Shown one piece after another: positions 13,226-25,309 of a stretch of DNA of 43,489 bases. The DNA comes from Lentilactobacillus hilgardii DSM 20176 = ATCC 8290 (GTDB lineage: Bacteria > Bacillota > Bacilli > Lactobacillales > Lactobacillaceae): assembly GCF_000159315.1 (NCBI RefSeq), contig NZ_GG669992.1:240368-283856 (forward strand). Direction: 5' to 3'. The first letter of the stretch is position 1. Each line of letters starts with the position of its first letter. The notes under the pieces are model-generated. The model worked only from the letters and a program-made list of their open reading frames with translations, ran no database searches and was not told the origin of the DNA. Made by a program: the position numbers and the translations under genes.

Positions 13226-13241
13226 TAGTGGGCAGTCAGGG
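13226..13241. repeat. Left attachment core (att) of the island
   Basis: TAGTGGGCAGTCAGGG is identical to 25234-25249, which covers the 3' end of tRNA-Lys. Similarity continues imperfectly to GAACCC. It is the duplicated core made by site-specific integration. Confidence 0.88.
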
Positions 13242-13315
13242 TATTGAACCCAACTTTTTAGAAACCTGCTATCTTACAGTGTTCATGCGACTTTTCGCCA
13301 AAATAATTCTTAAAA

Positions 13316-13335
13316 TGCTTACCGATTTGCTTACC
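13316..13335 (+). repeat. Left integrase arm-type sites
   Basis: Two TGCTTACC copies (13316-13323, 13328-13335), 12 bases apart and followed by ATTGA. The same pair with the same spacing and the same trailing ATTGA lies at 25116-25135. Direct repeats flanking the core are typical integrase arm sites; binding is inference. Confidence 0.65.
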
Positions 13336-13340
13336 ATTGA

Positions 13341-14492
13341 CTAAAAATCGAGGTAATTTGCTAACTTTTCGGCTGCTTGATTATCTTGTTTTTTGGTAAC
13401 GTGGGTATAAATATTTAAAGTAGTTTGAGCATCCTCATGACCTAATCGAGTTTGAACTTCTTTAATGGTTGCCCCGGCCTCAAATAACATACTTGCAGAA
13501 GTGTGCCGGAAACCGTGAACGGTTATCTTTTTCAGGTTGTGGGCTTTAATAATCTTATTCAACCATTTAGCGGGTGTGTTTAGTGATTTAAACCCGTTAT
13601 TACTGTTAGCAAAGATCAATTGACCACGTTGAATCGTATTGAATCCCAGCATTAAATATTCGCGCCTTTGTCGGGCACGCCATTGTTTTAGGTAATTAAG
13701 CGTAATTTTGTCTAAAGCAATGACCCGCTGACCTTTCTTGGTTTTCGGTGGTTGAATGATCTGCTTACCACGCATTCCTTGAGTTAATGTTTTGTTGATA
13801 CTTAGTGTTGATTTGCTAAAATTAACATCATTCCAAGTTAAGGCTAAACATTCACCACGGCGGACACCCGCAAAGGCTAGAACTCGAAATAGCGTGTATT
13901 TCTCTAATTCCTCTTTAGGATCAATGTAACTAAAGAATTGGGCAAGTTGCTGTTTATCCCAGAAGTTTTCCGGCTTTTCACCCCAAGTTTCTTTACGTTT
14001 AGGGATGGTAATCATCTTAGCGGGATTATCACCGTGCATATAGCCGTGTTTTAGGGCGTAATCAAAAATAGCCATTGTATATTCATACCACCGCTTATAG
14101 TTGTAAGTTGCCTGCTTGAACCACTTATTAACTGCTCGTTGAACTTGAGCAATGGTAATAGTACGAATCCTTTTATTTCCCAGTTCTGGTAAAATGTGAT
14201 TCTCAAACATCCCTGCTGTTCGACAATATGTGCTAACTCGGACAGTGTTAATATATCCTTGATACCATTGTTCATAAACTTGTCTAAACAGAATATTACT
14301 TTCTTGATGGAAGTCACCTTGACTAATTGATAATTCCAATTGATTAGCTGCTAAGGTGGCTTCTTTTTTTGTTCTAAAGCCTCTTTTCATGATTCGCTTT
14401 GGTTTACCCGTTTGAGGATCTAAACCAGCGTAGACCTGAAATAAATAACGTTTGTTGCCATTCTTTAAGGTGTAACCCTTGATACTTGCCAT
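13341..14492 (-). CDS. int: Tyrosine site-specific integrase
   Basis: Phage-type tyrosine recombinase that inserts and excises the island at tRNA-Lys. The 383 aa protein has an N-terminal arm-binding domain (MASIKGYTLKNGNKRYLFQV), a core-binding domain (about residues 60-165) and a C-terminal catalytic domain. Catalytic residues are Arg in FAGVRRGECLALTW, the HGFRHTSASMLFEAG box (His-x-x-Arg), His in LGHEDAQTTL and the nucleophile Tyr in LNIYTHVT. The stop lies 100 bases from the att core. The start is just downstream of an inverted repeat at 14496-14529 that includes its ribosome binding site. Confidence 0.95.
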   Translation of the reverse strand: MASIKGYTLKNGNKRYLFQVYAGLDPQTGKPKRIMKRGFRTKKEATLAANQLELSISQGDFHQESNILFRQVYEQWYQGYINTVRVSTYCRTAGMFENHILPELGNKRIRTITIAQVQRAVNKWFKQATYNYKRWYEYTMAIFDYALKHGYMHGDNPAKMITIPKRKETWGEKPENFWDKQQLAQFFSYIDPKEELEKYTLFRVLAFAGVRRGECLALTWNDVNFSKSTLSINKTLTQGMRGKQIIQPPKTKKGQRVIALDKITLNYLKQWRARQRREYLMLGFNTIQRGQLIFANSNNGFKSLNTPAKWLNKIIKAHNLKKITVHGFRHTSASMLFEAGATIKEVQTRLGHEDAQTTLNIYTHVTKKQDNQAAEKLANYLDF

Positions 14493-14495
14493 AAT

Positions 14496-14529
14496 TACCG
14501 TTCCTTTCAGCGCCAGCTCGTGAACGGTA
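14496..14529 (-). promoter_or_regulatory. Inverted repeat sequestering the integrase ribosome binding site
   Basis: TACCGTTC (14496-14503) and GAACGGTA (14522-14529) are perfect complements. On the minus-strand mRNA the right arm GAACGGTA ends three bases before the int ATG and overlaps the AAAGGAA ribosome binding site. A second overlapping pair, CTTTCAG/CTGAAAG, competes with it. The loop contains the 15-base sequence repeated at 16050. Translational control of integrase is inferred. Confidence 0.5.
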
Positions 14530-14542
14530 TGTAAACTGAAAG

Positions 14543-15403
14543 CTATTTACCTTTATGCTGTTTATCTGATAACTTTGTTAAATTTGGATGCGTTATTTGT
14601 CGAAAAGTATCATCCTCAATTGTATGTTCTTGTTCATATTGCTGTTCGATTCCGTCTGACTCGTCATCCATGGAAATAACCATTCCAGAGAACGCCATGT
14701 ATTCAAAGTGGTATTTTTCGGGATTTAGTGCGCTTTCTGTTCCAAGGTTCCAATTAATTATTATTTGGTATCGTGTTTTACTATCAATGTCAATATTGGA
14801 ATTACTAATAAAATTCATTATTATTTGTTTTCCAATATAGGCCATTAGACTTTTTTTGAGGCTTTTAAACAGGCCAACTGTTTCACCAAAATTCATTAAC
14901 ATATTGTTAACTCTTATTTCGTGCAGTACCGATTGATTGATTTTGTTTTTCAACAAATCAATATCCTGTTTATTAACCCATTCGAGCGAGAAAGATAAAT
15001 TCTTTTTAAGCAGGTTGTTTTTAGATGTATTTAACCCCTCTGTTAATCTTTCAGATTCGATTTTATTGAAACTCACAATAAATATGGCAACTTCTAAGTC
15101 AGTTTTATTGTTAAGGGTTCTTTCGTATTGGATACCAACAATTCTATTTTCGTCCGTATTTATTTTTTCCCCGCTTAATTCAATAAATTGAAATTTCTCT
15201 GTAGGTATTGTCCTTGATATTAATTCAGAAATCCCGATGTTAAAAAAAGTACATAAAGTCTCAAGGGTATCAAATTGAATTCCCTTGCTTTTCCCATTGT
15301 ATATATTCGTTAATGTTGGTCTTGAAATCCCTGTTATCTTTGACAATCGGTTGATGCTAATTTTTGAAGCGTCAACATATCTCTTTAAATTAACAGTTAT
15401 CAA
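14543..15403 (-). CDS. Helix-turn-helix master repressor (Stl/CI-like)
   Basis: Presumed repressor that keeps the island silent. TTG 15403 is preferred as start because GGAGG lies 7 bases upstream; a TTG at 15424 lies before that site. This gives 286 aa. The N-terminal HTH of the XRE type is visible at residues about 12-60 (ISINRLSKITGISRPTL, then FDTLETLCTFFNIGISELI). The remaining ~220 residues are not recognised: no Ser/Lys LexA-type protease motif is seen, so induction by self-cleavage is unlikely. By position it matches the Stl-type repressors of islands, which are released by a helper-phage protein (inference). It is transcribed divergently from the Cro-like gene. Confidence 0.75.
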   Translation of the reverse strand: MITVNLKRYVDASKISINRLSKITGISRPTLTNIYNGKSKGIQFDTLETLCTFFNIGISELISRTIPTEKFQFIELSGEKINTDENRIVGIQYERTLNNKTDLEVAIFIVSFNKIESERLTEGLNTSKNNLLKKNLSFSLEWVNKQDIDLLKNKINQSVLHEIRVNNMLMNFGETVGLFKSLKKSLMAYIGKQIIMNFISNSNIDIDSKTRYQIIINWNLGTESALNPEKYHFEYMAFSGMVISMDDESDGIEQQYEQEHTIEDDTFRQITHPNLTKLSDKQHKGK

Positions 15404-15555
15404 ACAATTACCTCCAAATTGCAAACTATATGTTCACCAAATATCATACAACTTGTTATTATTATTGACAATGGAAAATAATCAATATAGCATGTAGTTA
15501 TTAATTACAATAAAACGTAATTATGTGAATATATAATTTACAATAAGGGGCGAAA
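15404..15555. promoter_or_regulatory. Divergent control region of the island switch
   Basis: TTGACA at 15465-15470 with TATAGC at 15486-15491 is a candidate rightward promoter (spacing 15, slightly short). A perfect inverted repeat TAATTAC (15502-15508) / GTAATTA (15517-15523) and a near direct repeat (ATTACAATAA / TTTACAATAA) are candidate operators. The region separates the repressor from the early genes. Confidence 0.5.
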
Positions 15556-15738
15556 ATGCCAGCAAATAAAAAAATTAGAGAGGAAATTCAAAGAAACGAT
15601 TTACTGAATTGGGCAGTTGCTACCCAAATAGGAATTGCAGACACAACACTTTCAAGATGGTTAAGAACTCCATTAAATCAAGAAAGACGTAAACGTGTTG
15701 AAAAGGCAATCAAGGAACTTACTAAAGCAAAGGAGTGA
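15556..15738 (+). CDS. Small Cro-like helix-turn-helix protein
   Basis: A 60 aa basic protein directly after the divergent control region, with ribosome binding site AAGGGG. The HTH reads LLNWAVATQIGIADTTLSRWLRT, followed by a positively charged C-terminal helix (ERRKRVEKAIKELTKAKE). Similar short HTH proteins are the first rightward gene in many Lactobacillales prophages and satellites. The role as Cro-type antirepressor or activator is inferred from position. Confidence 0.75.
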   Translation: MPANKKIREEIQRNDLLNWAVATQIGIADTTLSRWLRTPLNQERRKRVEKAIKELTKAKE

Positions 15739-15742
15739 CAGC

Positions 15743-16039
15743 ATGCAGGAACCGTTAAAAGTAACCTTAACCAGTGAAGACAGTGAACAGCTAAGACGTG
15801 AGGTGTTTGCGGTGATGTCGGAAGCTGTTCAACAGGTCAGAAACAATGCGATTCAAGCACCAGAATGGTTGAAAGGAAAATCCGGTGTGGCCAAGTACCT
15901 TTCAGTTGGAACAGATACGGTTACCGGGATGGTTAAGTTGGGGTTGCCGGAACATCATACAAAAGCATCCCCCAATATCGCCTTCTTTAAGAAGGCGGAA
16001 GTTGATAGTTTTCTCTTGAATGACGGTTTAATCAAATAA
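15743..16039 (+). CDS. Excisionase-like / AlpA-type DNA-binding protein
   Basis: ATG 15743 follows AAAGGAG and gives 98 aa; a longer frame from 15695 overlaps the previous gene and lacks a ribosome binding site. The C-terminal half has the HTH_17/excisionase pattern LKGKSGVAKYLSVGTDTVTG, then PNIAFFKKAEVDSFL, as in MerR-like Xis proteins. The N-terminal half is a charged helix (EDSEQLRREVFAVMSEAVQQ). It probably directs excision with the integrase or activates early genes. Start and stop are 5 bases from the preceding gene, so the two are cotranscribed. Confidence 0.65.
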   Translation: MQEPLKVTLTSEDSEQLRREVFAVMSEAVQQVRNNAIQAPEWLKGKSGVAKYLSVGTDTVTGMVKLGLPEHHTKASPNIAFFKKAEVDSFLLNDGLIK

Positions 16040-16049
16040 AAACACAAGT

Positions 16050-16064
16050 CGCCAGCTCGTGAAC
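16050..16064 (+). repeat. Second copy of a 15-bp island repeat
   Basis: CGCCAGCTCGTGAAC is identical to 14511-14525 in the integrase leader, in the same orientation. Fifteen exact bases in a 1.5 kb span are unlikely by chance. It may be a protein binding site shared by the integrase and early operons, or recombination debris. Confidence 0.6.
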
Positions 16065-16092
16065 AATCGTCAAGAAAGAATGTAACACATAC

Positions 16093-16121
16093 AAAAAGCC
16101 CGCTGAAATTAATCAACGGGC
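16093..16121 (-). terminator. Leftward hairpin with T tail
   Basis: GCCCG (16098-16102) pairs with CGGGC (16117-16121); on the minus strand five T follow. It would stop antisense transcription entering the early operon. No minus-strand gene upstream of it is supported. Confidence 0.45.
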
Positions 16122-16238
16122 GGTAGTGGGTAAGTTTTCTATGTTTAGTTTTGAAAGGAATGATGCCATTCCCCTTGTGGAACAAGTCTATTATATCGCA
16201 ATATCATGCTACTAACACGTTGAAAGAAGGTTAATCAG

Positions 16239-16937
16239 ATGAAAAAGGAAATTGTGTTTCTAAGCAGTCAGGCTGTTTATGCTGACACTTTTACAACTAG
16301 TGATGTGATTGCAAAATATGCCGGTTCATCGCACAAGACGGTGAATGAATTAATTCGTAGGTATAAGAACGACCTTGAAGAATTAGGGGTACTTCCATTC
16401 TCAATGGAGTTACCCCTCAAAGGAAGTAAAGGTGGTCATCCTCGTAAAGTGTGGCGTTTAAATGAAGAACAAGCAACGCTGTTAATTACCTATATGGGAA
16501 ATACAAAACTAGTTAGACAGTTTAAAAAAGTATTGGTTCATCAATTCTTTGCAATGAAACGGGTACTTTATAAAAAACAAGTGCAATTCGAATTGGGTAA
16601 ACATTTTTCCAAAGATCTACATCAAGCGATTGCTGAAAGTCCCCATTTGGATGAACATCATCACTTGTATGGAAATGTTAACAAATTAATCTACAAGCAG
16701 GCGCTCGGCGTTTCAACGAAGACGTTAAGGCAACAGCGGGACATCCCTAAAGATGAACCCATTACCCATTACCTTAATAGCAATGAAGCCGGTGCGGTTA
16801 AACGAGTTAAGCAACAAGTCCAGATCTTGTTAGGGATGCATTTAGATTATCAGCAAATTAAAGACGCTTTGCAGGTTCAGGGCATTGTTTATCAAATAAC
16901 CTTACCGGCTAAGCAACTTATGAAAGAAGGTCATTAG
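16239..16937 (+). CDS. Rha-family phage regulatory protein
   Basis: The 232 aa protein begins with the Rha/pRha pattern: FTTSDVIAKYAGSSHKTVNE, then GHPRKVWRLNEEQATLLITY and MGNTKLVRQFKKVLVHQFF. The C-terminal half (about residues 115-225) resembles the ORF6C/KilA-C-like extension of phage antirepressors (LGVSTKTLRQQRDIP, EAGAVKRVKQQVQ). Such proteins bind DNA and modulate phage development. The ribosome binding site is AAAGAAGG. It overlaps no neighbour, and a tiny ORF follows after one base. Confidence 0.8.
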   Translation: MKKEIVFLSSQAVYADTFTTSDVIAKYAGSSHKTVNELIRRYKNDLEELGVLPFSMELPLKGSKGGHPRKVWRLNEEQATLLITYMGNTKLVRQFKKVLVHQFFAMKRVLYKKQVQFELGKHFSKDLHQAIAESPHLDEHHHLYGNVNKLIYKQALGVSTKTLRQQRDIPKDEPITHYLNSNEAGAVKRVKQQVQILLGMHLDYQQIKDALQVQGIVYQITLPAKQLMKEGH

Positions 16938-16938
16938 G

Positions 16939-17055
16939 ATGTTAATTGCCGAGATTGGCGCATGGATTTTGTTTTTGGTGAAGTTTTTAACTGCTTTTGG
17001 TTTAGGAGTCGTGGCCAAGAGTATGTACGATCATCCCCACGACTGGTTTGATTAA
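16939..17055 (+). CDS. Tiny single-pass membrane protein
   Basis: A 38 aa ORF one base after the Rha stop, with GAAAGAAGG upstream. It has one hydrophobic segment (AWILFLVKFLTAFGLGVVA, about residues 8-26) and a charged tail (KSMYDHPHDWFD). Small membrane proteins of this layout are frequent in phage early operons. Function is not recognised. Confidence 0.55.
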   Translation: MLIAEIGAWILFLVKFLTAFGLGVVAKSMYDHPHDWFD

Positions 17056-17083
17056 GAAATGAGGTTACGGAAATGACCAACGA

Positions 17084-17158
17084 GGGCACAAAAATAGACC
17101 GTTCAACTTTGGCGAGTAACGGTCTAACACATTCCCATATTTTTGTGCCCTTTTATTT
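17084..17158 (+). terminator. Nested-hairpin terminator / attenuator
   Basis: A perfect 13-bp outer stem GGGCACAAAAATA (17084-17096) pairs with 17138-17150. It encloses a second perfect 7-bp stem GACCGTT (17097-17103) / AACGGTC (17118-17124). TTTTATTTT follows the outer stem. The second stem stacks directly on one arm, giving a defined fold of about 67 bases. It splits the early operon, so it may be an attenuator, not just a terminator. Confidence 0.75.
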
Positions 17159-17184
17159 TAACAAAGTAAAGGGAGTAATTAAAG

Positions 17185-17343
17185 ATGAAACAACTAGATT
17201 TTAGAATGGTAGAAGCCCAAATGAATCAATTAAACACGGATACACTCGGTTACATAGCAACCGTTAAGCTTATTCAAGATGCTTTGGCGCGCTACTTAGA
17301 AACCCATAATATGGATTCAAAGCATTATGACAAAACCAGCTAA
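17185..17343 (+). CDS. Small hypothetical island protein (52 aa)
   Basis: ATG 17185 follows AAAGGGAG. The protein is mostly helical (FRMVEAQMNQLNTDTLGYIA, then TVKLIQDALARYLETHN). It is the first gene after the nested hairpin, in the run of short phage-type genes leading to the primase. Not recognised. Confidence 0.6.
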   Translation: MKQLDFRMVEAQMNQLNTDTLGYIATVKLIQDALARYLETHNMDSKHYDKTS

Positions 17344-17382
17344 GCTTATCAATTGAAGAAGTACAGAAAGTGGGGTAATGGC

Positions 17383-17622
17383 ATGCGTAACCGGCAACAG
17401 GAACTATTAAACGAGTCTTTACAAGAACTCACTAATTTAAAAGCAGAACTTAAATTATTAACCGCAGAAGTCAATACCTTAAACCAGACCCCGCCTTGTA
17501 AGCGGGCTGATGTCCGATATTTACTTAACAGTCTCGTGATTAATGTTGAACATGCTGAACAGGCTGTCCAAACCACCCAGCAGTTAACTGTCGGGATTCC
17601 CATTTTAGGCACTGTGGATTAG
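17383..17622 (+). CDS. Small coiled-coil island protein (79 aa)
   Basis: ATG 17383 is preferred (AAAGTGGGG 7 bases upstream) over an upstream TTG at 17353. A predicted coiled coil covers about residues 4-40 (QELLNESLQELTNLKAELK, heptad leucines). A second helix (VINVEHAEQAVQTTQQL) precedes a short hydrophobic tail. No family is recognised. It lies in the early operon with its neighbours spaced 15-40 bases. Confidence 0.6.
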   Translation: MRNRQQELLNESLQELTNLKAELKLLTAEVNTLNQTPPCKRADVRYLLNSLVINVEHAEQAVQTTQQLTVGIPILGTVD

Positions 17623-17637
17623 AGAGGAGTTAGCAAG

Positions 17638-18045
17638 ATGAAAGATGATCGCATTATTTACCCGGAGTTAGTGGAGCAATCCCATGCTTATTTGTTATCA
17701 CGGGGCGTGGATGTTTCTAAGGATGTCGTTTACCGCCATATGATCAAGAGTCATTTGATCGACCAGAACGGTCAGCCGACCAAAAAAGCGATTGATGAAG
17801 GACTGGTATCAGAAGCCAATGACCCGAATTCGTTAGCCCTCTTCAAAGCCCAGAATCCATTATTCTTACCCTATGATGATCGTCACTTTATTTGGGTGGC
17901 CGAATCACAGGAATGGGCAGCCGATTTATTTGTCGCCAAAGATGTTTCTAAACGGATTATAGATGGGCGGGCAATTGGAAATAAACACCATGCACAAGCC
18001 GTTTTGAAATATCTTGAGAAGCAAGAAGGTGATAACCATGAATGA
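17638..18045 (+). CDS. Hypothetical satellite protein upstream of primase (135 aa)
   Basis: Good ribosome binding site (GAGAGGAGTT) and codon use like its neighbours support a real gene. The sequence begins with a helical domain (YPELVEQSHAYLLSRGVDVS) and has an aromatic block FLPYDDRHFIWVAESQEW. The product is unknown. Its stop overlaps the start of the primase gene (ATGAATGA), so the two were translationally coupled. Confidence 0.65.
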   Translation: MKDDRIIYPELVEQSHAYLLSRGVDVSKDVVYRHMIKSHLIDQNGQPTKKAIDEGLVSEANDPNSLALFKAQNPLFLPYDDRHFIWVAESQEWAADLFVAKDVSKRIIDGRAIGNKHHAQAVLKYLEKQEGDNHE

Positions 18046-18801
18046 GTTAACTAGTATCGCCCATAAGCTAGCCAAACAAGGCCTAAAGGCTTCCCTTTAC
18101 AAGCTAACAGCAAGCGCCCAGTGACCGCCCACGGTTATTTGGACGCTACTGATAACCTAATCCAACTTGGTGAATGGTTTGATAATGACCGGCAGTATAA
18201 TCTTGGCTTGCGGTTGGCTGATACAGGCATAGTTGTGGTGGATATTGACCATCACACCCAAATAGACGGCCGCAAGGTGTTAAAGCAGTGGCAAGCCAAG
18301 GGGATGACCCTCATCCCCCAATATGCTGAACAAACGCCCCACGATGGCTTACATTACTTCTTTAAGACTAATCAAAAGCTACCGGATAAAGTGATTGTTC
18401 CTAGTATTGAACTCAAAACCAAACAAATTATGATGGCGCCTAGTCAGCTTGACGGCAAGCCCTATCAAACGATTAAGGGCACTGATTTGACTCGTTTAAG
18501 CCCATTGCCGGCGTGGTTGGTTAATCTGTTAACAAGTCAGCAAACCGCTCACAAGACCTTACAGCATCGTTTATATAAGTCGTGGACAGGTAAGCTATTA
18601 GATCAGCTAGTAACCGGAACTGATCAAGGACAACGCAACATCTATTTAACATCCCTGTTAGGTAAATTATTGCATACCGGTTGTGATGGTGATACTGCGT
18701 ACAGCTTGTTGGTTTTTGCTAACGAACATTTAACGCCGCCGTTACCCGATCAAGAAGTTAATACAATTTTTAAATCCCTTTTAAAACGGGCATTAAAGTA
18801 A
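18038..18801 (+). pseudogene. Bifunctional primase/polymerase (PrimPol), frameshifted
   Basis: Satellite primase with an N-terminal PrimPol (AEP) domain and a C-terminal PriCT-like domain. ATG 18038 with AGAAGGTG starts MNELTSIAHKLAKQGLKA in one frame, which stops at 18122-18124. The rest (FPLQANSKRPVTAHGYLDA onward) continues in another frame. One missing base near 18080-18085 explains it. Downstream motifs are intact: GLRLADTGIVVVDIDHH (catalytic acidic residues), TPHDGLHYFF (catalytic His) and the PriCT segment RNIYLTSLLGKLLHTG. No ribosome binding site precedes GTG 18121, so that start is unlikely. Either the gene is broken, or the sequence has a one-base error. The helicase follows after 15 bases. 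Confidence 0.8.
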
Positions 18802-18816
18802 GTGAGGTGATCAATT

Positions 18817-20289
18817 TTGGACAGTGAGGCGCAAATGTTAGCCCAGCAATATGATCAGACAGTCAATCATCCGCATACTCTAAAAGACAAATTAATGATG
18901 GATGTCCAGACATGGCAACTTGATCATCAAACCAAAGCCCAAGCGAAGAATGACACCTTGCCTCGTTTAACAACATTAGCCGGTTCGCAAATTATGCAAC
19001 GTCATTTTATAACCTGTTTATTTTCTGATAATGAAAGTGCTCGGTTAGCCATTTACTTACCGCACGAAGGTATTTATACCCAGAATTACCGATACATTAA
19101 ACGGTTGATCGGTATGATGTATGCTCCCTTTAATGAGCGAGAGGCCGAGGAAGTTATTTATCATTTGATTAATTGGGCGAAGGTTAAAGAACCAACCGTT
19201 GACCGCTATTTAATTCCGGTGGCCAATGGAATTTGGAATCTCCACAGACATGAGTTAATCCCCTTTAGCCCTGATTATGTGTTTACTACTAAGATAGCAA
19301 CGAAGTATGTCAATAATCCAGTTCCACCAAACATTAACGGCTGGACAGTGGATGGCTGGTTAAATGAGATTGCTAATCATGACCCCGAAATTGTTAAATT
19401 GCTTTGGGAAATTATTAACGACAGCTTAAACGGTAATTTCACTCGCAAGAAAGCCATCTTTTTATATAGCGAAAAGGGAAATACTGGTAAAGGAACGTTT
19501 CAACAGTTGATCCAAAATTTAGTTGGCAAAAGTAATGTGGGGTCTTTGAAAGTTAACCAGTTTGATGAACGGTTTAAGCTAGCGCTATTAGTTGGTAAAA
19601 CGGTTTGTATTGGGGATGATACCCCACCGGATATTTATATCAAGGATAGCAGTAGTTTTAATTCTGTGGTAACCGGGGATTTAGTCACAATTGAGTATAA
19701 GGGCCAAGATGGTTTTACAACAACCTTAAGGTGTACGGTCATTCAATCTTGCAACGGATTACCAAACTTCCATAACAAGGGTGGCACAATGCGGCGCATG
19801 ATCATTGTCCCGTTTAATAACCACTTTGAAGGGAGTAATGACAATTGGGATATTCGGGACGATTACATGAGCCGTCAAGATGTCTTACAGTACGTTTTGT
19901 ATCGGGCTTTACAGCTTGATTTTAAAAAGTTTGATGTCCCAACGGTTTCTAAGCAGGCATTAAGTGAGTTTGAGAAAGACAATGACCCATTAATCGGGTT
20001 CCGAGAATTCTTTTTGAGTTTAGAGGTTGATAAGATTCCAACATACTACGTGTACGAATACTACAAGAAATATTGTCAGATCAATGGACTAAAAGCTTTA
20101 GGACAGAATAAATTTATTCGCCGACTATTACCACTCATTCCGGATTATACCAAAAGGAAAGCTAAAGCTACTCACGAGGTTTTTCAACAAGCTAATCGGT
20201 TTAAAACACAAGACGAAATAACAGTGTATGTTAGGATGCCTGAAATTGGTAAAGGGTATCAATGTTTAATCAAAAAAGTAAAAAAGTAG
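18817..20289 (+). CDS. D5/P4-type phage primase-helicase (SF3 family)
   Basis: Replication initiator-helicase of the satellite. TTG 18817 follows GAGGTGATC; 490 aa. A D5_N-like domain (about residues 60-175) precedes an SF3 AAA+ motor: Walker A YSEKGNTGKGTF near residue 219, Walker B-type KTVCIGDDTPPD near 263, and the C-motif/sensor region TVIQSCNGLPN near 308 with the Arg-rich MRRMIIVPF. The C-terminal winged-helix region (about 400-490) probably binds DNA. The TGGAACY array begins 20 bases after the stop and is the likely target of this protein. Confidence 0.88.
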   Translation: MDSEAQMLAQQYDQTVNHPHTLKDKLMMDVQTWQLDHQTKAQAKNDTLPRLTTLAGSQIMQRHFITCLFSDNESARLAIYLPHEGIYTQNYRYIKRLIGMMYAPFNEREAEEVIYHLINWAKVKEPTVDRYLIPVANGIWNLHRHELIPFSPDYVFTTKIATKYVNNPVPPNINGWTVDGWLNEIANHDPEIVKLLWEIINDSLNGNFTRKKAIFLYSEKGNTGKGTFQQLIQNLVGKSNVGSLKVNQFDERFKLALLVGKTVCIGDDTPPDIYIKDSSSFNSVVTGDLVTIEYKGQDGFTTTLRCTVIQSCNGLPNFHNKGGTMRRMIIVPFNNHFEGSNDNWDIRDDYMSRQDVLQYVLYRALQLDFKKFDVPTVSKQALSEFEKDNDPLIGFREFFLSLEVDKIPTYYVYEYYKKYCQINGLKALGQNKFIRRLLPLIPDYTKRKAKATHEVFQQANRFKTQDEITVYVRMPEIGKGYQCLIKKVKK

Positions 20290-20309
20290 AAGTGAGTTAG
20301 GGTCAAATG

Positions 20310-20662
20310 TGGAACTCTGGAACCAATCATGGCTAATCCCTTTAGTATCAACGGATTCAGCGGTTCCACATTTGAAATAAAAGTGGAACCAAAAGTGGAA
20401 CTAATCACGGCTAATCCCTACGGCCTCTAAGGATGATCTACGGTTCCAGAAAGTTCCAGATATTTATGGAACTTTGAAAAAAGTACCAGAACTGACTTAA
20501 AATGTGGAACCTGACCAGCAATCGAGGAAAATGTTGTTGTATCAACGTTTAAACGCCTTAAATCATCAAAAGTTCCATAATTGGTTCCATTTTGTTTTTA
20601 AAAGTGGAACCATGAGATGCCTTGGGGCACAAGCGATACAGCCGAAAAGTTCCAGAGTTCCA
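20310..20662. repeat. Iteron array (14 x TGGAACY), probable replication origin of the island
   Basis: Fourteen perfect TGGAAC(C/T) heptamers lie in 353 bases, seven on each strand. Plus: 20310, 20318, 20384, 20396, 20467, 20505, 20605. Minus: 20362, 20442, 20452, 20571, 20583, 20648, 20656. About 0.1 would be expected by chance. Four copies have the longer form AAATGTGGAAC. An AT-rich stretch (20668-20705) follows. In related islands the origin is an iteron set next to the replication genes and is melted by the helicase-initiator; that this array is the origin is inference from position. No gene is supported here. Confidence 0.78.
20325..20340 (+). repeat. Direct repeat inside the iteron array, copy 1
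   Basis: AATCATGGCTAATCCC is repeated at 20403-20418 with one change (AATCACGGCTAATCCC). In each copy a TGGAACY heptamer ends immediately upstream, giving a conserved unit of about 24 bases. Confidence 0.7.
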
Positions 20663-20734
20663 CATTTACCCCTACTTTACTTTTATATTTATATGTTTTT
20701 TAGTCATTTATTTGCCAAAAAGGAGTGATGATTG

Positions 20735-21154
20735 ATGAACGAATTAGAATTTAAACAAACCAAATTGCTTAAAAGAATCCAGAATCATGAAATGATGTTA
20801 TCACCGTCATGTGTTAGCGGTTATTATAATCGGACGACTGATAATAACCCGCTAGATTTTACCAAGTTATCGGATAACGAAAAAATAACTTTAGTAAATT
20901 GGATTGTTACCGTTTTTAAACCAATTAAAACGGTTAACAAATGGCACAGTTCTTACGGATTGAAACACTTGTTTGAACATGCTCCGTTGGGCTTCTATGT
21001 TAAAAATGGGGCGTTTAAAGGAGCAATGCTGATTGCTGGTTTTGAACCGGTTGACCCTAATGAACTTAATTGGCGCTTTAAAATTTCAGAGGTCAGCATT
21101 GATAATTCAGAAATAGCGAAAGCATGGGATTTTACCAGCAAAGGGGACAACTAA
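20735..21154 (+). CDS. Hypothetical satellite protein (139 aa)
   Basis: ATG 20735 is 8 bases after AGGAGTG; the TTG at 20732 is too close. The protein has a conserved-looking core, WHSSYGLKHLFEHAPLGFYV then NGAFKGAMLIAGFEP, similar in style to small uncharacterised proteins found in Gram-positive phages and satellites. No catalytic motif is recognised. It is the first gene of the three-gene cluster after the origin. Confidence 0.65.
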   Translation: MNELEFKQTKLLKRIQNHEMMLSPSCVSGYYNRTTDNNPLDFTKLSDNEKITLVNWIVTVFKPIKTVNKWHSSYGLKHLFEHAPLGFYVKNGAFKGAMLIAGFEPVDPNELNWRFKISEVSIDNSEIAKAWDFTSKGDN

Positions 21155-21155
21155 C

Positions 21156-21575
21156 ATGCGTAAATTAACCGAAACCGATATTCAAGTATTGCGGTTGTTG
21201 AAAAAAGGCGCTGATAATAAAGTAACCAAACGCCAATTAATGGATAAAGCCAAAATAACCGCTCGTAACTTGTATGATGCCATTGAAGCGTTACGTTCGT
21301 TAGGTATTCCCATCATGGCTAGTCGTAACGTCAAGGATCCCGGATACTACATTGCCCAGACCAAAGATGAAAAGATTAACGGGATTGCCCAGTATAAGAA
21401 ACAAATTGCTACGGAACGGCACAACTTAGCTTTACTTGAAAAGGCTAGCATTGACGACTATTTGAATAATGCCATTAAAAGCCCTGATTTTTGGCGGTTG
21501 TATGGTCATGATTTAATCAAGGTAACCAATATTACAGATCATTCAGTAACGTTTAAAATTAAAAGTACACTGTGA
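21156..21575 (+). CDS. Winged-helix/HTH domain protein
   Basis: A 139 aa protein starting two bases after the previous stop. Residues 1-65 form an HTH (LTETDIQVLRLLKKGADNKV, TKRQLMDKAKITARNLYDAI, EALRSLGIPIMASRNV) resembling HTH_11-type winged helices, with a beta wing ending in GYYIAQ. The C-terminal half is unknown. Probably a DNA-binding regulator of the island. The next gene follows after 11 bases. Confidence 0.65.
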   Translation: MRKLTETDIQVLRLLKKGADNKVTKRQLMDKAKITARNLYDAIEALRSLGIPIMASRNVKDPGYYIAQTKDEKINGIAQYKKQIATERHNLALLEKASIDDYLNNAIKSPDFWRLYGHDLIKVTNITDHSVTFKIKSTL

Positions 21576-21586
21576 GGGGATGAAAC

Positions 21587-21946
21587 ATGAAGAATAATGA
21601 GTTAATGCCATATTTTGCTGAACTATTGGAACAGCGAAACACCTTGATTCATCAGAATAGAATTTTGAACCGTCTCAACCGAACCATTGAGATTAACCGG
21701 CAAGCCCTTTATCAATTAGATGCTAATATCGATCAGTTATTGGCCAAAGATTGGCAAATGACCATGCGCTACCACCGGTTGTATGACCATCTAAAAAGCA
21801 ATTGGGTAGAGTTGAACGATGAATTAGAGCAAGTCACCCGTGACTTATGGTGCCTCACACAAGACCAAGTTCCCCTTGATTATTCAAAGGTGACTCCCAA
21901 ACAGCACCAGTTAATTAAGCAAGAGTTTGCCAAATATCATCGATAG
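21587..21946 (+). CDS. Helical hypothetical protein (119 aa)
   Basis: The ribosome binding site GAGGGGATG precedes ATG 21587. The protein is almost entirely alpha-helical and rich in Asn, Gln, Arg and Leu (NTLIHQNRILNRLNRTIEIN), with possible coiled coil across residues 12-60. Function unknown. It is the last supported gene before the gene-poor region and is followed by a terminator. Confidence 0.6.
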   Translation: MKNNELMPYFAELLEQRNTLIHQNRILNRLNRTIEINRQALYQLDANIDQLLAKDWQMTMRYHRLYDHLKSNWVELNDELEQVTRDLWCLTQDQVPLDYSKVTPKQHQLIKQEFAKYHR

Positions 21947-21960
21947 TCGCAAGCTAAAAG

Positions 21961-21987
21961 CATCCGTCAGTAAACGGGTGTTTTTTT
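21961..21987 (+). terminator. Terminator ending the island's rightward operon
   Basis: CATCCGT (21961-21967) pairs with ACGGGTG (21974-21980) with one G-U pair, followed by seven T. Confidence 0.85.
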
Positions 21988-21990
21988 ATG

Positions 21991-22048
21991 CTGACATTTC
22001 TGACACCTTAAAAAGAAAAAATCTTAATTTCTCGGCGCTTACAATTCC
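21991..22048 (+). repeat. Diverged direct repeat, copy A
   Basis: The segment with GACATTTCTGACACC and TTTCTCGGCGCTTACAATTC recurs at 23863-23918 with about 80 percent identity by eye. It is part of a larger duplicated set. Confidence 0.7.
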
Positions 22049-22320
22049 ATCAGTGGTGTTTTACATCTACTTGTGATGTAACGATATCTCTTTTACTATC
22101 AAAATGAACTCATAAATGGTTTTGATCATGCAATAAAATCACAACTTCGAGAACTTTTATTTGGGGATGCGTAACAGTTATAGACCTTGATGTTATAATA
22201 TTTGCCAACCTTTCGGCTTAAGCAATTAGCAGTTAAAAATTGAATGATTTAATTTGGTAAAAATGACAAGGTTTTGGCAAGGTAAAAACCTTATAAAACC
22301 CCATATTTTTTTGAGAGTCA

Positions 22321-22363
22321 TGCACCTAAAACACTGCACCCTAAAATGCAACGTGTTGCACCC
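22321..22363. repeat. TGCACCY cluster A
   Basis: TGCACCT (22321), TGCACCC (22335) and TGCACCC (22357) lie with TGCAACG (22347) in 43 bases. The stretch TGCACCCTAAAATG is shared with cluster B at 23488. The last copy follows GCAAC-GT-GTTGC and precedes a T-run, giving a hairpin. This may be a relic iteron origin of another element. Confidence 0.55.
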
Positions 22364-22674
22364 TTTTTTATTGTGTTGCATATACTTAAACCCTTGGTAA
22401 TACTGGTATTAGGTTGCTTTATATGTTGCTTTTTTACATCAAGAATTGGTAAGATTTGTCGAGAGAATTGTTGAGATATGTCCACGTTATGGTGCAACGT
22501 TATTCTAAATTACTTTTCGGTACTAACAGATTAATTTTTCACCAAGCTAATGACTTTCACTAGCTGATTTTTCAGCCACGAGATTAGCTAGACTATCCAA
22601 AATTGGACACACCCTTATTTAATCAAATTCCGAAAACCTGAAATACAATTCGTTTAATAATTAATCAACAGCTA

Positions 22675-22683
22675 TGATATAAT
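22675..22683 (+). promoter_or_regulatory. Extended -10 promoter of a candidate small RNA
   Basis: TGATATAAT is a consensus extended -10 (TG at 22675-22676, TATAAT at 22678-22683). A strong terminator lies only about 80 bases downstream and no ORF lies between. Confidence 0.65.
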
Positions 22684-22689
22684 GAAGTT

Positions 22690-22760
22690 GTCAAATAATT
22701 AACATCAATCTAGGCAACCGGAAGCGGTGCAAAGAGGTCACTGGAAACAGTGATTTTTTT
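22690..22760 (+). ncRNA. Candidate structured small RNA
   Basis: About 70 bases between an extended -10 promoter and a terminator. The terminator stem TCACTG (22738-22743) / CAGTGA (22748-22753) has a GAAA tetraloop and seven T. An outer pairing AGGCAAC (22712-22718) / GTTGCCT (22761-22767) brackets it, so readthrough would give a different fold. The GGTCACYGG element of its terminator resembles that of the minus-strand RNA at 24260-24355. Function unknown; it could be an antisense regulator or an antitoxin RNA. Confidence 0.55.
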
Positions 22761-23454
22761 GTTGCCTGTAATGAAGCGCTGCATCCCTTTATGGTATAAA
22801 GCACCTCACAATTAGGGATGATTCATAGATTACAATTAATTATGAACGTGTCGAATATTATTAAATACATTTATGATCAACGGGTCTCTTTTCGTAGATT
22901 GCCCATCTGCTTGAACGAGGTGAACTATATTCACCTAGTAATTTATTGAAGGTTTGGTTTTACTGGAAAATAAGTAGAACTAAGACCATTAGATTACCGA
23001 CTGTAGTTAATTAACGTTGAAATGTAGCACAACAGTTGGTTAATGCCTCCGCGAAGCCAGTTTAAATGCTTTGATAGTGTACTCACTAGTGTTTAGTTCA
23101 TGGTGCTGGTTATTATTAGTGAGATTGTTACCAGTTACATAAGCATAGGTGTATCGATAGCGGTAATGTACATATTTGTACGAAATGAATAAAGCAAAAA
23201 CTTTCAATTTAATTATCTTGGACATTTTAGACATTTTTGACAAAAACGCCAGCCAAGCGCTTCGTGATGCGAAAAACTAGGATTATTTAGAAATTATAAA
23301 TGGTGGAAAATGGTGGAACTTTTGCGTTAACAAAGTTAGGTGTCGAAGCTATGCAACGTTTTAGACTAAGAATAACTCAGATTTCCTAGGCTTTTACTCG
23401 TTTGTTGATTAGCATATACGATAGCAAAAGCTTATTTAACAAGCGATTTCACCT

Positions 23455-23513
23455 TGCACCTAATTATGAGGGTGCACCCATTTTGTGTGCACCCTAAAAT
23501 GAAAAAGGGTGCA
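23455..23513. repeat. TGCACCY cluster B
   Basis: TGCACCT (23455), the palindrome GGGTGCACCC (23470-23479, both strands), TGCACCC (23488) and GGGTGCA (23507, minus) give five copies in 59 bases. It is followed, as in cluster A, by GAGAGAATTGTTGAG (23590 region) and GTGCAACG. Confidence 0.6.
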
Positions 23514-23862
23514 CTACGTTGCAAGGATAAATGACGCTACAAACTAGGTATTGCAAGAGTTTATGATGACATTAACCAAAGAAACGACTTTGAGAGAATT
23601 GTTGAGGTTTATTAGGGTCTTGGTGCAACGAATGTTGGCTAATGTTGACGTTGGAATGGGATTAGTAAAAGGTGGTCAGTGCCCGTACTCGTCCATTTTA
23701 AAAATTGAATATTTTCCCCAAGCTAAACGCTAGGGATGCTAGTCATTGCTGTGTTTGCGAAGATACGTTGTCGGGAGTGACACGCTTTTTTGCTTCAATT
23801 CTTGGACACCGATAGAGGGATGATACACTGAACAACATTATCTGTTTAGAACAAGAAATATC

Positions 23863-23918
23863 CCGACATTTCCGACGCCCTAAAGAAAAAAGATCCAATT
23901 TCTCGGCGCTTGCAATTC
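23863..23918 (+). repeat. Diverged direct repeat, copy B
   Basis: Paralogous to 21991-22048 (shared TTTCTCGGCGCTT). The following segment (GTTAAG, then GGCTTTGGCTAGGTAAAAGC near 23975-24010) parallels 22228-22285 after copy A. Confidence 0.7.
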
Positions 23919-24115
23919 GGTAATGGTTTACTTGAAGAAGTGTAATAACATCCCTTTGAGTTTAAATAATTAGAAGTTAAGAAATGTTAAGGCTTTGGCT
24001 AGGTAAAAGCTCTATATAGAAGTGCTGAACCAAGTCGAAATATTCGACCTGCTTAGCGATCGGCTTTGGCTTGCGGACTATCAGATTGGTAATTTTACTA
24101 ATGGGATGATTGCCG

Positions 24116-24169
24116 ATATTTTTGTGTGCAATGTTAAGGATTACTTTTTTTATTGGTAAATGTGTATGA
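24116..24169 (+). pseudogene. Possible relic of an Fst/Lpt-type toxin peptide
   Basis: A 17-codon frame reads MIADIFVCNVKDYFFYW. It resembles the IAPIFVGLV core of Fst/Ldr-like type I toxins (IA-IFV--V conserved). The expected Pro and Gly are replaced, and the frame stops early. It lies about 90 bases left of, and convergent with, the candidate minus-strand RNA, as toxin and antitoxin genes do in par-type loci. No good ribosome binding site is seen. This is a weak call. Confidence 0.25.
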
Positions 24170-24259
24170 AATCCATTGATACATAAAGCATAGAGACGAT
24201 TAAAAACTGACAGAAAATAATGGAAAATACTGGAATTTGTTTTAATGAAGTTAGGTACC

Positions 24260-24355
24260 AAAAAAGGCCACCATTGCCGGTGACCAGCTTTGAACTTCAG
24301 TATAACAATCACTAAGACTATATTCTTAGTGTTATTTGAAGGACAATTCCTTCAT
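24260..24355 (-). ncRNA. Candidate minus-strand small RNA (RNAII-like)
   Basis: On the minus strand an extended -10 (TGC then TATAAT, plus coordinates 24362-24367) overlaps a palindrome ATGTCA-TGTTT-TGACAT. About 70 bases later the hairpin GGTCACC/GGTGGCC (24266-24285) is followed by six T. Between them are hairpins GAAGGA/TCCTTC and CACTAAGA/TCTTAGTG. The size, structure and convergence with the toxin-like frame recall RNAII antitoxins of par/Fst modules; this identity is inference. Confidence 0.5.
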
Positions 24356-24563
24356 GCTTGTATTATAGCATGTCAAAACATGACATTTAATTAGGTTAAA
24401 AAAGGCTACAAATTAACTTGTTGAAGTTGGAACACCTTATCAATTAGTCCGATTTTAAAAGTAGCTTAATCCGTTGGCACACAAATGATTTCGGCTTTCA
24501 CTCGTTTAATTATCGGACGCCGGTAGAGGGGTTAGGGATGCAACAAACTGAATGCCATGTTGT

Positions 24564-24845
24564 TCAATTATTAAGATTGTTTTTCCAGATAGAAAGCTTC
24601 CACTGACACCAATCAATAAAATCTTTTTCAGTAATGTGCTTGATATCAGGGATGTCTAGTTTGCGGGTGGTCAATGGTTCACCAATGGTCTTATGAATGG
24701 CACCAACCACCAAGTAATTAGTTTGTTGGGTAACCTGTGCTTTAGGAAGCGCACCAAAAGCACTAGCAACAGCAAATGCTTGCTTACGTGGCATACTCGC
24801 TAATTTACCTGTAAAGACAATTTCCATGTCCGTTAAATCAATCAT
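24564..24845 (-). CDS. Stand-alone BRCT-domain protein
   Basis: A 93 aa protein that is essentially one BRCT domain as found at the C-terminus of NAD-dependent DNA ligase LigA. MEIVFTGKLASMPRKQA is the first strand and helix, FGALPKAQVTQQTNYLVVG the central strands, and HITEKDFIDWC the last helix with its Trp. ATG 24845 follows TTGAGGGATG on the minus strand. BRCT domains bind DNA ends or nicks and other proteins. In an island it might interact with host replication or repair. It is the only clear gene in the right end. Confidence 0.8.
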   Translation of the reverse strand: MIDLTDMEIVFTGKLASMPRKQAFAVASAFGALPKAQVTQQTNYLVVGAIHKTIGEPLTTRKLDIPDIKHITEKDFIDWCQWKLSIWKNNLNN

Positions 24846-24974
24846 TAAACATCCCTCAATTAAAATAAATTTAATAGACTAACTAAGCACGCAAAAGTTT
24901 ACGTTGTTTTTTTATTTAGGCATACTAACCATAATCGGATCAAAGAAATAAGTTTATGTGAAAGGGTTGAAGTC

Positions 24975-25160
24975 ATGATAATTTGGTTTACAGTGGTTTT
25001 ACTTTTTCTCTTTTGGTTCATTGGGGTATTCATCCATAATAAAAATAACATCCCTGATCAAAGGGATGTAGACCAATTCATGGCTGGCGCATTAGATATA
25101 TTAAAATATGCTTCGTGCTTACCAAAATGCTTACCATTGATTTCGTCTAAATCGAATTGA
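24975..25160 (+). CDS. Small membrane protein at the island's right end
   Basis: A 61 aa frame with one strong N-terminal membrane helix (WFTVVLLFLFWFIGVFI, residues 3-20), then a polar part NNIPDQRDVDQFMAGALDIL. The last 15 residues (YASCLPKCLPLISSKSN) are encoded by the integrase arm sites, so the original C-terminus was probably replaced when the element end formed. The upstream AAAGGGTTGAAGTC is a modest ribosome binding site. Function unknown. Confidence 0.45.
   Translation: MIIWFTVVLLFLFWFIGVFIHNKNNIPDQRDVDQFMAGALDILKYASCLPKCLPLISSKSN
25116..25135 (+). repeat. Right integrase arm-type sites
   Basis: TGCTTACC at 25116-25123 and 25128-25135, followed by ATTGA, copies the pair at 13316-13335 with the same spacing. 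A partial third copy (TGCTTCG) lies at 25109. Confidence 0.65.
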
Positions 25161-25178
25161 ATCGAAGTGTTAAAAAGT

Positions 25179-25224
25179 AAAAAAACAGCAACCACGGCGT
25201 TTTAAGGCTGCATGGCTACTGTTT
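25179..25224 (-). terminator. Terminator of tRNA-Lys carried by the island
   Basis: On the minus strand AAACAGTAGCCATG pairs (with G-U pairs) with the complement near 25183-25197, then seven T follow. It lies inside the island, just after the tRNA 3' end, and mimics the displaced host terminator at 13165-13208. The island thus restores both the tRNA end and its terminator. Confidence 0.75.
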
Positions 25225-25233
25225 GAATTGCGT

Positions 25234-25249
25234 TAGTGGGCAGTCAGGG
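25234..25249. repeat. Right attachment core (att) of the island
   Basis: TAGTGGGCAGTCAGGG overlaps the last bases of tRNA-Lys and is identical to 13226-13241. Confidence 0.88.
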
Positions 25250-25309
25250 GCTCGAACCCTGGACCCACGGATTAAGAGTCCGTTGCTCTACCAACTGAGC
25301 TAACTGCCC
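25237..25309 (-). tRNA. tRNA-Lys (anticodon CTT)
   Basis: The 73-base cloverleaf is complete. Acceptor GGGCAGT pairs with ACTGCCC; D arm GCTC/GAGC; anticodon stem ACGGA/TCCGT with loop CTCTTAA (anticodon CTT); T arm CAGGG/CCCTG with loop TTCGAGC; discriminator A. CCA is not encoded. Its 3' end is the island's attachment site, and the gene remains intact. Confidence 0.96.

Follow-up and report, generated by a model that had tools for sequence, protein, structure and literature searches.

A modular array of opposed iterons behind a D5/SF3 helicase gene as the probable replication origin of a PICI-like satellite in Lentilactobacillus hilgardii

The stretch of DNA analysed here (the window, 43.5 kb) carries an array of 14 TGGAACY iterons that is very probably the replication origin of a PICI-like satellite of about 12 kb in tRNA-Lys, built from modules of iterons and presumably bound by the helicase encoded directly upstream. 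The case is made from sequence comparison: it rests on the layout of the array, on the genes of the element that carries it, and on the recurrence of such arrays behind homologous helicase genes in other genomes. Many of these arrays share a conserved palindromic box between opposed iterons, which appears to be undescribed. The coordinates of all features are collected in Table 1.

The Iteron Array and Its Element

Within 353 bases, TGGAACY occurs seven times on each strand, where 0.098 copies would be expected from the rest of the window; our recount agrees with the first-pass annotation, which had put the chance expectation at about 0.1. The whole window contains 26 copies against 10.5 expected from shuffles, 12 of them in the 43,079 bases outside the array. 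Four tight heptamer pairs that had been named before (20310/20318, 20384/20396, 20442/20452, and 20648/20656) are correct as given and are joined by a fifth at 20571/20583 that was absent from the earlier list; in the strain's own assembly (113 contigs), two same-orientation heptamers 1–5 bases apart yield five matches, all of them in the array. The longer sequence AAATGTGGAAC, said to be shared by four copies, is indeed found at 20305 and 20500 on the plus strand and at 20363 and 20657 on the minus strand. A direct repeat next to the heptamers, described before as one of 16 bases, is likewise real, but it is not exact: It matches at 16 of 17 bases (20325–20341 and 20403–20419). The helicase gene stops at 20289 and the first iteron is at 20310, so that the array follows the gene directly on its 3′ side.

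By its strand order (++- ++-- ++-- +--), the array can be parsed into four modules with iterons facing inward, which cover all 14 copies, and the 7:7 strand balance arises because these modules are inverted pairs. Same-strand neighbors are spaced by 8, 12, 10, 12, and 8 bases, plus one pair at 38, and opposed neighbors by 44, 22, 46, 15, 66, 22, and 43 bases. Ten of the 14 heptamers pair with opposite-strand copies about one single center, which makes five symmetric pairs; random positions give 2.4 on average (p 0.0005), and none of 2000 gap shuffles reached five, so that the mirror-symmetric layout noted in the first pass exceeds chance. Such symmetry is also a trait of the family: Among 72 other arrays with at least eight iterons and at most 16 sites, a global dyad was detected at p ≤ 0.05 in 27 when compared with random positions and in 21 when compared with gap shuffles.

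Table 1. Features of the window; coordinates refer to the window, and assignments of function are predictions from sequence.
Feature	Position	Strand	Remarks
Integrated element, about 12 kb	13226..25249		exact 16-bp repeat TAGTGGGCAGTCAGGG at 13226–13241 and 25234–25249
TGCTTACC repeat pairs, presumed integrase arm sites	13316–13340 and 25116–25140		
Tyrosine integrase	13341..14492	−	PF00589 1.4e-25, PF14659, PF14657
cI/Cro-type HTH regulator	14543..15424	−	PF13443 1.3e-15; PHROG regulators
Rha-like regulator/anti-repressor	16239..16937	+	PF09669 7.7e-16; phrog_2657 1.4e-39
Prim-Pol (AEP) primase with PriCT_1	18121..18801	+	PF09250 7.2e-18, PF08708 3.2e-11
D5/SF3 helicase (D5_N, DUF5906, Pox_D5)	18817..20289	+	PF08706, PF19263, PF03288; Pox_D5 at residues 387–454
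Putative replication origin array	20310..20662		14 TGGAACY iterons, dyad center near 20486
TGGAACY iterons	20310, 20318, 20384, 20396, 20467, 20505, 20605	+	
TGGAACY iterons	20362, 20442, 20452, 20571, 20583, 20648, 20656	−	
Module 1	20310..20368		iterons 20310(+), 20318(+), 20362(−); inner pair 44 bases apart (start to start)
Box of module 1	20333..20361	−	27.0 bits, top match of the 43.5-kb window; locus in matrix training set
Module 2	20384..20458		iterons 20384(+), 20396(+), 20442(−), 20452(−); inner pair 46 bases
Degenerate box-like sequence, module 2	20411..20439	−	4.6 bits, sub-threshold; has the 16-of-17-base direct repeat in common with module 1
Module 3	20467..20589		iterons 20467(+), 20505(+), 20571(−), 20583(−); inner pair 66 bases
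Box of module 3	20527..20555	−	19.9 bits, second-best match of the window; locus in matrix training set
Module 4	20605..20662		iterons 20605(+), 20648(−), 20656(−); inner pair 43 bases
Box-like sequence, module 4	20612..20640	+	TTGGGGC center; 9.5 bits, sub-threshold
AT-rich stretch outside the array, candidate unwinding region	20670..20729		GC 0.25
tRNA-Lys(CTT)	25236–25309	−	3′ end covered by the right TAGTGGGCAGTCAGGG copy

The element could be delimited to about 12 kb because a 16-bp repeat lies over tRNA-Lys and paired TGCTTACC repeats lie near both ends. This repeat at tRNA-Lys corresponds to a specific att site of the PICI type, and the gene order is that of a PICI as well: integrase and HTH regulator on the minus strand, followed on the plus strand by a small HTH protein, Prim-Pol, and helicase, and then by the array. 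As a candidate excision protein, the small HTH protein is uncertain (phrog_668, 9.5e-06), and no terminase or capsid-remodeling family was detected among the scanned proteins of the element, some small ORFs lying outside the scan. The helicase matches PDB entries 7ola/7om0, in which the molecule is named DNA primase, with an E-value of 9e-137 over residues 52–487; we take these entries to be the PriRep protein of SaPI5. Like a self-loading helicase of the SaPI5 type, it combines D5_N, an SF3 core, and a Pox_D5 C-terminus, with homology over most of the protein, and it is probably the origin-binding initiator.

The right part of the element is nearly free of ORFs and holds two smaller clusters of GGTGCA/GTTGCA-type hexamers (22321–22412 and 23455–23518), with a sequence resembling the box described below at 22384–22412 (18.2 bits) after the cluster at 22321–22412. 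The clusters are possibly the remnant of a second origin; positions 21901–25250 gave no tblastn match to the fetched helicases. The same part contains diverged duplicated tracts (22011–22499 and 23488–23918, 77–89% identical), and a 93-aa ORF on the minus strand (24564–24845) looks BRCT-like by eye, without a Pfam match.

If the array is read as an origin, the helicase encoded upstream would bind the TGGAACY iterons via its C-terminal domain. A module would then consist of one or two inward-pointing iterons per side, the inner ones usually about 44 bases apart, and two helicase complexes could sit head to head on each module, as has been proposed for SaPI and SV40 origins. Melting might start between these complexes or in the nearby AT-rich stretch, and the neighboring Prim-Pol would presumably prime.

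Arrays Behind Homologous Helicase Genes

To place the array among its relatives, we searched 60 relatives, 301 genomes of the family, and 295 genomes of the order. The 96 helicase-homologue loci considered are part of the matches, namely the best 30 listed per search, one viral contig, and 20 further matches from the family search. In 62 of the 96, the 700 bases 3′ of the helicase contain a 7-mer on both strands that is commoner than in all 60 shuffles, compared to 1 of 88 upstream and 1 of 96 coding controls, which supports the earlier notion of an origin array belonging to the adjacent helicase. The remaining 34 homologues lack an over-represented 7-mer by the shuffle test, and a relative with 70–71% identity (L002) has a weak array only. 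The over-represented 7-mer often differs from locus to locus. Across 62 loci with at least six copies, same-strand neighbors are mostly 8–12 bases apart, and the spacing of opposed neighbors peaks at 10–14, 21–23, and 41–47 bases, a pattern with which the array of the window agrees.

Could the heptamers instead be operators of a regulator that controls the helicase or the genes after 20732, with replication beginning elsewhere? The array occupies part of the 442 bases that separate the helicase from the next ORF of more than 100 aa, one sigma-70-like site lies there as well, and the element encodes HTH regulators, all of which would suit such a role. The promoter-like site is, however, at chance level (1 found, 1.7 expected), and neither promoters nor terminators exceed chance; moreover, the array follows the helicase in relatives, where iteron and helicase C-terminus vary together, and phages phi31 and Sfi19 show a similar layout behind their helicase genes. 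We therefore consider operators very improbable and continue with the array as an origin.

With respect to base composition, 70 of 89 arrays hold a 40-mer of at least 85% AT and 19 remain below 85%; in the 46 arrays that reach at least 90% AT, the median position of the AT-rich 40-mer is the middle of the array (0.49). The array of the window has no such center: its best internal 40-mer has 75% AT, and the best 40-mer of the AT-rich stretch at 20670–20729 (88% AT) begins 11 bases past the last iteron, outside the array. An AT-rich center is also missing from two near relatives, L031 (72%) and L240 (75%), which deviate together with the window from the arrangement of two iteron sets around an AT-rich region (PMC6092414), in a comparison that leaves out the close relatives L002 and L003 because the available sequence holds too few of their iterons. 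The helicase of L240 is 66–67% identical to that of the window, and its array comprises, by eye, about five modules with GTACCA.

Two further observations concern individual loci. Six same-genus helicases of 668–768 aa (L023, L024, L025, L028, L029, and L030) are accompanied by ATCCGTCAT, ATCCTCCCAT, or GGACGGA-type arrays, and the four of them that were compared (L024, L028, L029, and L030) differ little in the helicase C-terminus. In L005 (G057:C1), a helicase homologue with two in-frame stops is followed by a weak 7-mer cluster, and this locus is probably a decaying element.

Iteron Choice and the Helicase C-Terminus

The set of loci used from here on was obtained by removing 15 of the 96 downstream regions as redundant, which left 81, and by adding 12 phage loci, taken from 610 matching phage records, together with 21 of the 23 loci at class level, L116 and L124 having too little downstream sequence; this amounts to 114. 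For the 73 of these loci with at least six iterons, the similarity of the motifs correlates with the C-terminal identity of the helicases, given the core, with a partial Mantel r of 0.098 (permutation p 0.006). The first-pass annotation had proposed co-variation between motif and C-terminus as a check; such co-variation exists, weak overall but standing out in a few pairs whose helicases are nearly identical. The pairs are instructive: L086 (GTTCCA) shares 97% of the core with L090 (GGTGAC) and L092 (GGTAAC) and 73–75% of the C-terminus; for L019 (GTTCCA) and L094 (TATCCA) the values are 93% and 81%, and for L024 and L029, whose iterons also differ, 99% and 89%. Many of the differences within such pairs map to a short stretch that precedes the last conserved segment, for example SRRGIDDSSNIWRF versus SQHGMHDHNFIWRF, and this stretch may form the wing of a winged helix. 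The iteron cannot simply be read off C-terminal similarity, because the GTTCCA core is common to helicases with 15–20% C-terminal identity and because L054 and L017 have different iterons at 74% identity. Iteron choice thus appears to follow the helicase C-terminus weakly across the whole set and clearly in a few pairs.

A Conserved Box Between Opposed Iterons

In many relatives, the gap between the iterons contains an imperfect palindrome, AAACCCTTGATATNACAGGGTTTA (the box), whatever the iteron. Among k-mers common to the 81 non-redundant regions, AAACGTTGAT is present in 15 and ACGTTGATA in 16. A first position matrix, cross-validated, reached at least 12 bits in 50 of the 81 regions and in 3 of 81 coding controls. 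A merged matrix did so in 68 of 114 regions and 3 of 102 controls, in a cross-validation whose halves are not fully independent because L059 and L098 have the same box hit and do not differ in the parts of the helicase that were compared and because the added loci were not filtered for redundancy. With the merged matrix fixed, at least 12 bits were found in 32 of 39 held-out loci (130 later loci minus two that were too short and 89 that were redundant), as compared to 2 of 39 coding and 0 of 39 upstream controls. Over 153 regions, training loci included, the box is found in 80 of 89 with at least seven iterons and in 37 of 64 without (p 5.5e-6). Outside the order of the window, the first matrix reached at least 12 bits downstream of the helicase in 8 of 22 class-level loci; in 3 of the same 22, 12 bits are reached in the whole helicase gene, which is longer. 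In the window itself, two of the four modules (1 and 3) have a clear copy.

Of 44 boxes flanked on each side by an iteron no more than 15 nt away, 38 have opposed iterons (31 of 36 loci, p 1.3e-5) and six have iterons in the same orientation; for held-out boxes under this limit the numbers are 23 of 27 (17 of 20 loci, p 0.003) and four, and in 10 of the 23 opposed cases the iterons are exactly 44 bases apart. Under a looser limit of 60 nt the excess is weaker (48 of 74 boxes, 32 of 51 loci, p 0.09). We found no description of the box in the literature searched, to which figures and most subscription papers did not belong, so it may be in print. The box is a candidate functional element common to many such origins and apparently undescribed.

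We tentatively suggest that the SF3-helicase origins of Bacilli phages and satellites follow a two-part code, a reading to which we give slightly less than even odds: Rapidly changing iterons would be read by a wing-like C-terminal segment, and a slowly changing box, AAACCCTTGATATNACAGGGTTTA, between inverted iterons about 44 bases apart would act as a common initiation element, either as the place of first melting or as the site of a factor present in all hosts. The branch of the window would have multiplied this module and dropped the AT-rich center.

A competing view, somewhat doubtful in our judgment yet quite conceivable, assigns the box to a host-encoded or other accessory factor instead of helicase loading. 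It would account for a box that varies little among loci with divergent iterons and helicase C-termini, and also for palindromic versions of the box that occur away from helicases, namely in the genome of the strain itself, behind integrase genes, and ahead of a pair of adjacent ORFs in a phage group; the place between inverted iterons at near-fixed spacing, on the other hand, suits helicase geometry equally. We know of no factor for the box sequence. We rejected the idea that the box is exclusive to origins: at least 12 bits are reached at 14 start positions of the window, compared to 1.85 in Markov sequence, and these positions include one within the helicase gene (19924) and others in the element's right part. 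As for the versions away from helicases, a palindromic box is located about 75–105 bases 3′ of tyrosine integrase genes at L141:2057, L146:458, and L151:13596, a location where an att core or a terminator is to be expected. In L147–L150 and L152–L155, the 22-base palindrome AAACGTTGATATAACAACGTTT lies just upstream of two adjacent ORFs of about 190–206 and 590–629 aa (where complete), whose sizes suggest a small and a large terminase.

A single-strand hairpin, be it a primosome-type or nicking site, or a transcription terminator is an unlikely function of the box. The idea was prompted by eye, as the arms look complementary in many copies and the versions 3′ of integrases look terminator-like. 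The sequence TTGATAT may resemble rolling-circle nick sites. The mean fold z over 59 copies (−0.46 to −0.72) is slightly but consistently under zero; this folding excess is, however, small and alike on both strands, as for any imperfect palindrome. Permutation of the arms gave p 0.37, 0.19, and 0.82 for Watson–Crick pairs, and with G–T pairs two of three tests come near significance (p 0.06, 0.045, and 0.35); the best column pair has a z of 3.4 among about 1,100 pairs. Gapless co-variation, folding, and arm permutation thus did not establish a hairpin, nothing terminator-like was detected at 20200–20800, and a search for known RNA families returned one chance-level match. A primase site is not favored either, because the presence of the box is not associated with a Prim-Pol of the window type (66 of 117 regions with the box, 17 of 36 without, p 0.35), in a test that used short flanks and a profile by which divergent primases could be overlooked. 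We do not claim a second type of box with a TTGTGGC center, as the model seeded with it converged to the common consensus.

If the two-part code holds, the box would allow origins to switch helicase specificity without losing function. Read as an origin, an odd repeat cluster becomes legible. The layout rule of inverted iterons about 44 bases apart with a shared box can help to find and compare origins of phages and satellites. In pairs of near-identical helicases with different iterons, the short C-terminal segment is the likely specificity element, and such natural pairs make origin recognition by self-loading SF3 helicases directly testable.

Comparison with Known Origins

The array of the window is very likely a multi-module form of a familiar type of origin, its function being deduced from sequence. 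As far as the available text of the cited work goes, the origin of Gram-positive PICIs lies immediately 3′ of the initiator gene, and PICIs of E. coli, described as identical in organization, always have two iteron sets flanking an AT-rich region (PMC6092414). In the accessible part of another report, the C-terminal domain of SaPI Rep recognizes the downstream iterons (PMC7581432), and opposed repeats are described, in the portion available, as loading two head-to-head helicases (PMC9894130). The window resembles SaPI/PICI origins in having its array directly 3′ of the helicase gene, opposed iterons, and a helicase homologous to 7ola/7om0. It differs from them in that the arrangement of two iteron sets around an AT-rich region, as given in the accessible text (PMC6092414), is replaced by four modules, the AT-rich center being absent. 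The first-pass impression that the array layout is unlike known origins was not supported, since origins of the SaPI type are published with iterons in opposed orientation, as the available passages of PMC6092414 and PMC9894130 have it.

Nor is the motif unlike that of known origins, as had also been thought: The core motif of the window is not new, because Lactococcus phage phi31 (AJ292531) has seven copies of TGGAACA after pri31, a homologous helicase gene whose region is 42.7% identical to the helicase of the window. As in the window, these iterons have the GTTCCA core and form two opposed sets, and each half contains one box-like sequence (17.8 and 11.3 bits); phi31 has two modules around an AT-rich center, whereas the window has four modules and no such center. 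The region after pri31 is, we assume, the proven origin that gives phage resistance (ori31/PER31). Iterons in common, as here with phi31, also hint at the phages and satellites that could be rivals for initiators.

Phage Sfi19 of S. thermophilus likewise has a non-coding element after a DUF5906 helicase, with nine copies of AGTAAC and two box-like sequences (25.5 and 12.7 bits); the iterons at its right box are opposed by eye, with a shorter core, and in the same orientation by 6-mer count. In each half of phi31, and by eye of Sfi19, iterons face each other across the conserved sequence. The corresponding element of Sfi21 acts as an origin and confers resistance, according to the available text (PMC6356513). 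The Sfi21/Sfi19 type differs from the window by its other iteron and by the presence of an AT-rich center. A more distant parallel is offered by the origins of SV40 large T and papillomavirus E1, at which, as the accessible part of PMC9894130 has it, helicases are loaded head to head on opposed short repeats; there the DNA-binding domain is N-terminal (PMC7581432, in the text available), unlike in our model for the window, and the analogy is one of mechanism only.
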